From Caenorhabditis elegans (Eukaryota > Nematoda > Chromadorea > Rhabditida > Rhabditidae), in contig NC_003279.8 of assembly GCF_000002985.6 (NCBI RefSeq), forward strand, positions 7,936,001-8,000,000: a DNA stretch of 64,000 bases, given 5' to 3'. Positions 23,907 through 25,163 of the stretch are shown here, piece after piece. The notes beneath the pieces are model-generated. The model was not told the DNA's origin and did not search any database. It worked only from the letters and a program-made list of their open reading frames with translations. Position numbers and translations under genes: made by a program. How positions within the stretch are numbered: the stretch's first letter is position 1; the number at the start of each line of letters is the position of its first letter.

Positions 23907-24836
23907 CAAACTCTCTTCACCTTCACCAAAGAATAGCAAATGTTGAATGCTCCAAACTTGTAGACTTATAGAACTGTAGAGCATCTTTATTTATGAATGA
24001 AACTGTTCACAAATGCCATTCTACTTATTTTAAACACCTTCTGAGCCAATTACCAGGAAAATTTCAAATTTTAAACTGCAATTTATATCCTCAACTTACT
24101 ACTTTTTTTCTTGATTTTCACACGATATTTGAATTTTTCAATAAAATCATACAGCCGATTAAATAAATGAATGCCGTGAGTTCTTCCTGTTCAAAATAAC
24201 AATCGAAATATGAATCTAAAATTCTGAAAAATCGTACTGCATTCAGTTTAATTTTCCATTATCAGATGATGAAACATATTTATTTCGAACAAAATTATTC
24301 ATAGCCAACGATAAACTTTAGGAATCCGAAGTTAGTCTTCAAGATATCCCAGATCACATTGAAGAAATGGCTAAACTCTTCCCAAATTCCAGAGAAAACC
24401 TTGTTCACAAGCATCGGACGATAGGCACATAACTAATCTCGGAATTTTCGTCTGATAGCCAAACTCCTGTCATTTGGTTACATCGGATACTGTACTTATC
24501 AGACAAATCATGGCGGCGAACTGTTGAGAAATTCTGGAATTGAAACTTGTTTATAATATTTGAGATTCACAACAGCAAACATAATTAAAATTAGAAAACA
24601 ACGAGTATTTCTCGAAATTTAAACAAATACTTTTAGAAGATCGGATTCTAACTCCATTCCTACACTTCAAACAAACTATATTTTCTTCTCTATAAAAAAG
24701 GCAACTAAATCAAAAGCTGCTTGAATTAGTGTCTTTTTTCATTCAACTCGATAAAATATTTACAGAAAAGACGTTTCAATCCGAGAGTTATCTGATAACT
24801 TCGATTTCAATGAGTTGCACATTTTTCAGAATCAGT
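23907..24836. other. intergenic region upstream of the tRNA
   Basis: Contains the 3' UTR of the membrane-protein gene and a possible micro-ORF on the minus strand (24295-24414). Otherwise A+T-rich with no recognised element. Confidence 0.5.
24295..24414 (-). CDS. possible micro-ORF, 39 residues
   Basis: The minus strand reads MLVNKVFSGIWEEFSHFFNV, then a Trp/Phe/Ile-rich amphipathic stretch ending FIVGYE-stop. The frame stays open 5' to about 24431, where ATTAG could be an acceptor. The composition (many aromatic and alternating polar residues, no low complexity) is more protein-like than random A+T-rich DNA. I found no convincing upstream exon in phase, so it may be a short gene or chance. 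Confidence 0.25.
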   Translation of the reverse strand: MLVNKVFSGIWEEFSHFFNVIWDILKTNFGFLKFIVGYE

Positions 24837-24921
24837 GCCCCGGTGGCCGAGCGGTCGAAGGCGTGAGACTTATGATCTCATTGGGTTAAACCAGTCGCGG
24901 GTTCGAATCCCGCCCGGGGCA
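24837..24921 (+). tRNA. nematode-specific V-arm tRNA, anticodon UAU (nev-tRNA-Ile type)
   Basis: An 85-base cloverleaf without intron. Acceptor GCCCCGG pairs perfectly with CCGGGGC, with discriminator A at 24921. The D arm is GCC...GGC. The anticodon stem TGAGA/TCTCA encloses the loop CTTATGA, giving anticodon UAU (codon AUA, Ile). A long variable arm TGG-GTTAAA-CCA makes it class II. The T arm GCGGG-TTCGAAT-CCCGC is intact. Six T's follow at about 24927-24932 as a Pol III terminator. A class II body plus A73 is the leucine pattern, whereas normal tRNA-Ile has a short variable loop. This matches the nev-tRNAs reported in nematodes, which are charged with leucine in vitro despite an Ile or Gly anticodon. 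Confidence 0.9.
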
Positions 24922-25163
24922 GAATATTTTTTCTCAGTTTTTCTAGCATGTGAAAACAGTTTACATTTGTTTTAAATTATTTAGCTTCCTGTTTTCAGAT
25001 TTTTCAGGTTATGTAAAATATTTGCGGGTTGATAATTCTTTCTCAATAGTATATTTTGCATATTCAGTCCTACTCTACTCCTCCCTTCACTATCCCCTAT
25101 CTAAATACTATCCATTCCAAGACAACAATTGATTTTTCTTTCAAAACTACAGCACTCCTACTT

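Follow-up and report, generated by a model that had tools for sequence, protein, structure and literature searches.

The 64,000-nucleotide (nt) stretch of Caenorhabditis elegans DNA analyzed here (C1:7936001-8000000, on contig NC_003279.8; hereafter the window) harbors an intact gene, at positions 24837 to 24921 of the forward strand, which combines a leucine-type class II tRNA body with the isoleucine anticodon UAU and thereby fits the already described nematode nev-tRNA-Ile(UAU) type. The finding as first put forward, from a reading of the sequence alone, is thus not new; what is added here is the presence of G37 beside U36, the copies of the gene elsewhere in the genome, a shared 5′ element, and sister genes with anticodon loops of 5 nt and 11 nt. 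The product of the gene is probably a scarce, Leu-charged, and poorly decoding class II tRNA, which adds little Leu at AUA codons. The features on which this account is based are the following, Pol III denoting RNA polymerase III.

24837..24921, plus strand: nev-tRNA-Ile(UAU) gene, a class II tRNA with a Leu-type body and anticodon UAU (Rfam RF00005 at 62.9 bits, ARAGORN, and stem dissection)
24871..24873, plus strand: anticodon TAT (U34 A35 U36), followed by G37 at 24874 (ARAGORN anticodon position 36 counted from 24836; loop CTTATGA)
24881..24896, plus strand: variable region of 16 nt, TTGGGTTAAACCAGTC, with a short TTGG/CCAG helix containing one G-U pair (hand dissection)
24822..24836, plus strand: 5′ flank TTTTTCAGAATCAGT, with the core TTCAG at 24825-24829 (ending at -8) and then AA, the gap between TTCAG and the tRNA being 7 nt (11 of 11 nev-type genes)
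24927..24932, plus strand: T6 run, the presumed Pol III terminator (direct reading of TTTTTT)

The gene is the single tRNA called by ARAGORN in the window (24836-24922, plus strand; Ile with anticodon tat), and neither this program nor Rfam returned any further tRNA in the 64 kb. Model RF00005 (gathering cutoff, 29 bits) matched 24837-24921 of the plus strand over 71 of 71 model positions with 62.9 bits and an E value of 2.8e-11. This score is not pseudogene-like, because it sits within the range of 50.4 to 71.8 bits obtained across the genome (63 places, only the best candidates out of 8106), for which 100,286,401 bases in 7 contigs were searched and in which counts for large families represent lower bounds. 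Neither the low covariance score nor the broken stems of a tRNA pseudogene were seen, and hand dissection of the acceptor, D, anticodon, and T stems left 0 of 20 positions unpaired, giving a perfect cloverleaf. The anticodon loop, CTTATGA, reads as C32 U33 U34 A35 U36 G37 A38, and the discriminator base is A73. The folding energy of the cloverleaf was -36.4 kcal/mol versus -39.3 kcal/mol for the unconstrained minimum, which deviates from it in the D and anticodon arms. A search for a second copy within the window at up to 3 mismatches returned none (shuffle mean, 0; 100 shuffles), and, by our own reading of the sequence, the tRNA is flanked by two reading frames on the opposite, minus strand. 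The description given in the sequence-only reading, namely, a class II tRNA with a long variable arm (V-arm) and A73 whose 7-base loop presents UAU, is borne out by the 16-nt variable region, the fully paired stems, the Ile(tat) call of ARAGORN, and a covariance score outside the pseudogene range.

The nev-tRNA family was reportedly defined in a 2012 paper by Hamashima. Its hallmarks are apparent in the window gene, which has a class II fold with a long V-arm and an anticodon, UAU (Ile), which is that of neither Leu nor Ser. According to the portion of PMC4300185 available to us, nev-tRNAs are charged in vitro with Leu only, C. elegans nev-tRNA-Ile undergoes CCA addition and is enriched in the cytoplasm at low abundance, and nev-tRNA-Gly is usable in cell-free translation; perfect cloverleafs and anticodon variants of nev-tRNA genes are likewise already stated there. 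These reports fit the nematode nev-tRNA identity, including in vitro charging by leucyl-tRNA synthetase (LeuRS), that had been proposed from the sequence, and they accord with the proposal that this copy is expressible. The further suggestion that Leu may be inserted at AUA found no support: the proteomics described in that portion of PMC4300185 detected no nev-tRNA-induced misincorporation, the target having been Gly-to-Leu replacement at GGG, while AUA was without special variation and Ile-to-Leu replacement is invisible since the two masses are equal; moreover, G37 argues for weak decoding.

The significance of G37 lies in the adjoining U36. Each of the four distinct 7-nt loops of the nev family carries G37 (4/4), in three of them beside U36, and tRNA-Leu(UAA) also has G37 as judged by eye, whereas A37 was found in 38 of 38 control tRNAs with U36 (Ile-AAU, 7; Lys-CUU, 12; Lys-UUU, 15; Arg-UCU, 3; Arg-CCU, 1), which are gene copies from five anticodons and not independent cases. 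Canonical Ile(UAU) candidates, taken by eye as three of the seven rows returned by one pattern (C5:6917488, C5:12002198, and C6:12661186), all read ACTTATA, and thus A37, followed by an apparent intron (also by eye). The window gene, being class II, with G37 and without an intron, is not a canonical tRNA-Ile(UAU). As a side observation, the four nev-UAU copies described below outnumber the three canonical Ile(UAU) genes found with this one pattern. In yeast, LeuRS reads G37 and A35, which fits the charging of nev-tRNA with Leu. The sequence U36A37A38 is, according to the part of PMC9654439 available to us, a universal determinant of N6-threonylcarbamoyladenosine (t6A), and loss of t6A with codon-specific translation defects followed from A37G changes in two mitochondrial tRNAs. 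With U36 G37 A38 in place of this determinant, nev-tRNA-Ile would be unable to carry t6A37, so that its reading of AUA should be poor. G37, beside low abundance, accordingly offers a simple reason why nev-tRNA-Ile need not cause ambiguity at AUA.

It is on this evidence that a true ambiguity of the genetic code, in which nev-tRNA-Ile would insert Leu at AUA often enough to be useful, perhaps in certain tissues or during stress, is considered very improbable. Such a role would draw on the in vitro Leu charging, CCA addition, and export and on the cell-free use of the Gly member reported in the accessible text of PMC4300185, as well as on the excess of nev-UAU genes (four) over the canonical Ile-UAU genes recovered by pattern (three); however, the Gly case yielded no detected misincorporation, AUA showed no special variation, and published expression is weak (all from the same text), and U36 with G37 precludes t6A.

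A DNA search of the genome located four identical copies of the gene, namely, the window copy and those at C1:9562353, C1:9563843, and C6:9829667. A fifth Ile-type copy at C1:9558792 (L013, C1:9558800), which is 96.5% identical to the other Ile-type copies, has an anticodon loop of 5 nt, with its stems, V-arm, and 5′ element intact, the 7-nt loop thus being present in four of the five. A pattern for class II tRNAs gave 51 genome matches, 11 of which constitute the nev family, a lower bound because class II genes whose D-arm or T-loop letters differ escape the pattern. This family comprises the 5 Ile-type genes, 3 Gly(CCC) genes, a CCU gene at C3:6727003, a CUU gene with A33 at C3:6724147, and a gene with an 11-nt loop at C4:11721157. 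The last of these (L029) also retains intact stems, V-arm, and 5′ element, and the CUU gene, in which A33 replaces U33 (L124, C3:6724080-6724340), lies approximately 2.9 kb from the CCU gene. Inspected by eye, most of the remaining 40 class II matches are Leu or Ser tRNAs, and at least 2 resemble no proper tRNA. In a comparison with the UAA, AAG, UAG, and CAG isoacceptors of tRNA-Leu, from which the intron-containing Leu-CAA was left out, the window gene was closest to Leu-UAA (69% body identity), the other three reaching 60 to 63%. Pattern searches for relatives in the genome_contigs and viral_contigs databases gave no match, as expected for a nematode gene.

When the six distinct bodies of the nev family were cut by hand and compared, standard pairs occupied 119 of 120 stem cells, the exception being a T-T in the CCU gene, and two-sided changes were present at 8 of the 20 stem pairs; the sequences compared are few and related, and these counts ignore kinship. 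The V-arm occurs in five different sequences, each with a helix, its score being reached by 19, 4, 6, 2, and 4% of shuffles. The helix of the window copy is not significant alone (19% of shuffles equal its score), and the five-sequence set represents the better evidence. In contrast, no two of the six distinct bodies have the same anticodon loop, which in two of them departs from 7 nt (5 and 11 nt). On these comparisons, the nev body and V-arm look constrained, with the anticodon loop as the varying part.

Such a pattern bears on two further explanations. The first is that the family represents a decaying relic, i.e., a misassigned and nearly neutral group of Leu tRNAs which persists via duplication and gene conversion. 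The odd anticodon loops in 3 of the 11 genes (5 nt, 11 nt, and A33), the weak expression described in the consulted portion of PMC4300185, and the flanks common to the C1 Ile copies and to the Gly copies, which suggest duplication, are in keeping with this explanation, yet the pairing of 119 of 120 stem cells despite two-sided change at 8 of 20 pairs is not expected from neutral decay, nor does the exact TTCAG spacing in 11 of 11 genes favor it; decay is, as such, deemed improbable. The second, which overlaps in part with the account favored here, is that nev-tRNAs act independently of the anticodon, their product being a Leu-chargeable class II body that might serve, e.g., as a nonribosomal Leu-tRNA, in regulation, or as the precursor of tRNA fragments. 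The stems of the family pair via two-sided changes even though its loops include UAU, CCC, CCU, CUU with A33, and those of 5 and 11 nt, the 5′ element is found in 11 of 11 genes, including those with odd loops, and the published proteomics, as given in the same portion of PMC4300185, are without misincorporation. This second explanation is nonetheless rated as unlikely on the whole, as the 5-nt-loop copy is so similar to the others (96.5%) that it may be a recent dead copy and four of the five Ile-type copies retain the 7-nt loop.

The 5′ element of the window gene recurs throughout the family, in that TTCAG ending at -8 and followed by AA (TTCAGAA ending at -6) precedes 11 of the 11 nev-type genes. 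A relaxed genome pattern, TTCAGAA N{52,82} GTTCGANNC, gave 96 matches (17 in the backward control). These took in all 11 nev genes, together with some tRNA-like repeats, one class I tRNA, and sequence that is not tRNA; within the range searched, N{52,82}, the 40 class II pattern matches outside the nev family were all missing (0/40). A stricter pattern, TTTCAGAAT N{52,82} GGTTCGANNCC, which detects only genes with GGTTCGANNCC, gave 9 matches, all of them nev-type, and 0 in the backward control. Upstream regions of 63 control tRNAs, made up of 42 tRNAs called in 40 loci (from the 63 scored places) and 21 Leu genes which also belong to the 40 class II matches, contained TTCAG in 0 of 63 cases at a spacer of 4 to 10 nt, a range which covers ARAGORN starts that are one base off, and in 3 of 63 cases within 60 nt. 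A Gibbs search of the same 63 regions revealed no fixed-position motif, and position counts showed weak preferences only, e.g., T at -30 and C at -23. Separately, CTA(A/G/T)(A/G)C occurs at -28 to -31 in 8 of the 63 control tRNA genes, perhaps as a TFIIIB site, and is lacking by eye from the nev genes. In ungapped comparisons between unlike nev members, raw flank identity was 70 to 80% over the first 10 nt and 20 to 70% over nt 11 to 20, and most bins beyond nt 20 upstream fell at 0 to 50%, with single bins at 55% and 70%. Between like members, the shared flank extends to about -50 for the C1 Ile copies, to about -30 only for the C6 copy, and further for the three Gly copies. Such likeness could stem from constraint acting on the flank close to the gene or from common descent.

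TTCAGAA therefore stands as a fixed element within the nev family which is not unique to it. The idea that the element marks tRNA-like sequences in general was rejected, as an in-range TTCAG occurs in, but is not the rule for, the tRNA-like repeat type with the core TGGCNCAGTGGGATTTT: among 187 genome copies of this core, which form dense clusters toward the chromosome ends among the matches listed, 16 rows had TTCAG in range, two of them at one place, and 6 deviated from the nev spacing by no more than 2 nt (by eye). Pairing between leader and trailer was similarly dismissed as the reason for the element, given that only two of six pre-tRNA folds (the window copy and Gly) have the AGAAT leader paired to the trailer, the other four showing pairing of at most one or two bases adjoining the tRNA. 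The TTTTTCAG at the 5′ element resembles the worm 3′ splice site; a splice-acceptor reading was set aside because the tRNA lies between two minus-strand frames and because the spacing to the tRNA is equal in 11 genes.

Combining these observations, we propose that the window gene is one of four identical nev-tRNA-Ile(UAU) copies, of Leu type and class II, which would be transcribed by Pol III. The upstream element most likely belongs to the region where Pol III starts, and it would be inherited with the gene and kept for its effect on the start of transcription. The Leu-type body would make the product a substrate of LeuRS, as published in vitro, and the tRNA, weakly expressed, would receive CCA and arrive in the cytoplasm, as is also in print. 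We infer that scarcity and a Leu-type G37 by U36, without t6A37, would render it a poor competitor for AUA, so that little Leu would be added at this codon, AUA being read by the canonical intron-containing tRNA-Ile(UAU) genes, of which three were found.

Several points weigh against this account. The match to the published nev-tRNA-Ile is one of class, anticodon, and V-arm length and not letter by letter; Leu at AUA was never measurable by mass; and the G37 argument is indirect, poor AUA decoding being deduced from sequence. The element, moreover, is not exclusive: a Lys tRNA control (L080) has TTTTCAG abutting the tRNA, another (L066) carries TTCAGAA approximately 40 nt upstream, upstream of a class I tRNA at C6:5485090, which reads by eye as Met(CAU), lies TTCAGAATCC, its TTCAG separated from the tRNA by 17 nt, and TTCAGAA also accompanies several of the tRNA-like repeats matched by the relaxed pattern, with TTCAG 5 to 7 nt ahead of them. 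Mere shared ancestry of the family flank could also account for the element. A broader possibility is that nev-tRNAs form a single family with its own start element, in which selection keeps the Leu-chargeable class II body as the anticodon loop drifts, even to sizes which should not decode, the resulting Leu-tRNA entering translation scarcely or not at all. Our confidence in this possibility was lowered slightly because the element is nonexclusive, and it is now regarded as doubtful; if true, the job of nev-tRNAs would be done by a Leu-tRNA that hardly or never enters translation.

Why nev-tRNAs are retained without visible mistranslation is a question raised in the text of PMC4300185 available to us, and G37 by U36, the shared 5′ element, and the two odd-loop sister genes each provide a simple handle on it. 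The words “upstream,” “flanking,” and “promoter” do not occur in the main text of PMC4300185. More generally, G37, the upstream element, the two-sided stem changes, and the odd loop sizes are absent from the text found in our literature search, though the 2012 and 2016 Hamashima papers may hold odd-loop genes, G37, or the flank.

With respect to known systems, the window gene shares its anticodon UAU, class II fold, and perfect cloverleaf with the published nev-tRNA-Ile(UAU), no distinguishing feature having been found in the consulted portion of PMC4300185, and its V-arm falls inside the 15 to 20 nt reported there for nev-tRNA-Ile. The tRNA-like repeats with the core TGGCNCAGTGGGATTTT are probably CeRep3 elements, which have been linked to TFIIIC sites (PMC6950938, as available in part); they resemble nev genes in possessing tRNA-like Box A and Box B sequence, a few also having TTCAG close upstream, and differ in being degenerate repeats. 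Canonical tRNA-Ile(UAU) has the same anticodon as the window gene but is class I, with an apparent intron and A37. C. elegans tRNA-Leu(UAA) is alike, by eye, in its 16-nt variable region, G37, and A73, with an anticodon one base apart, but is separated by 22 mismatches and 5 gap columns and is without TTCAGAA among the relaxed-pattern matches. Finally, nev-tRNA-Gly(CCC) shares a 74% identical body, the same TTCAG spacing, G37, and A73 with the window gene, from which it differs in its anticodon, CCC, in its copy number (three found), and in the sequence of its acceptor and V-arm.
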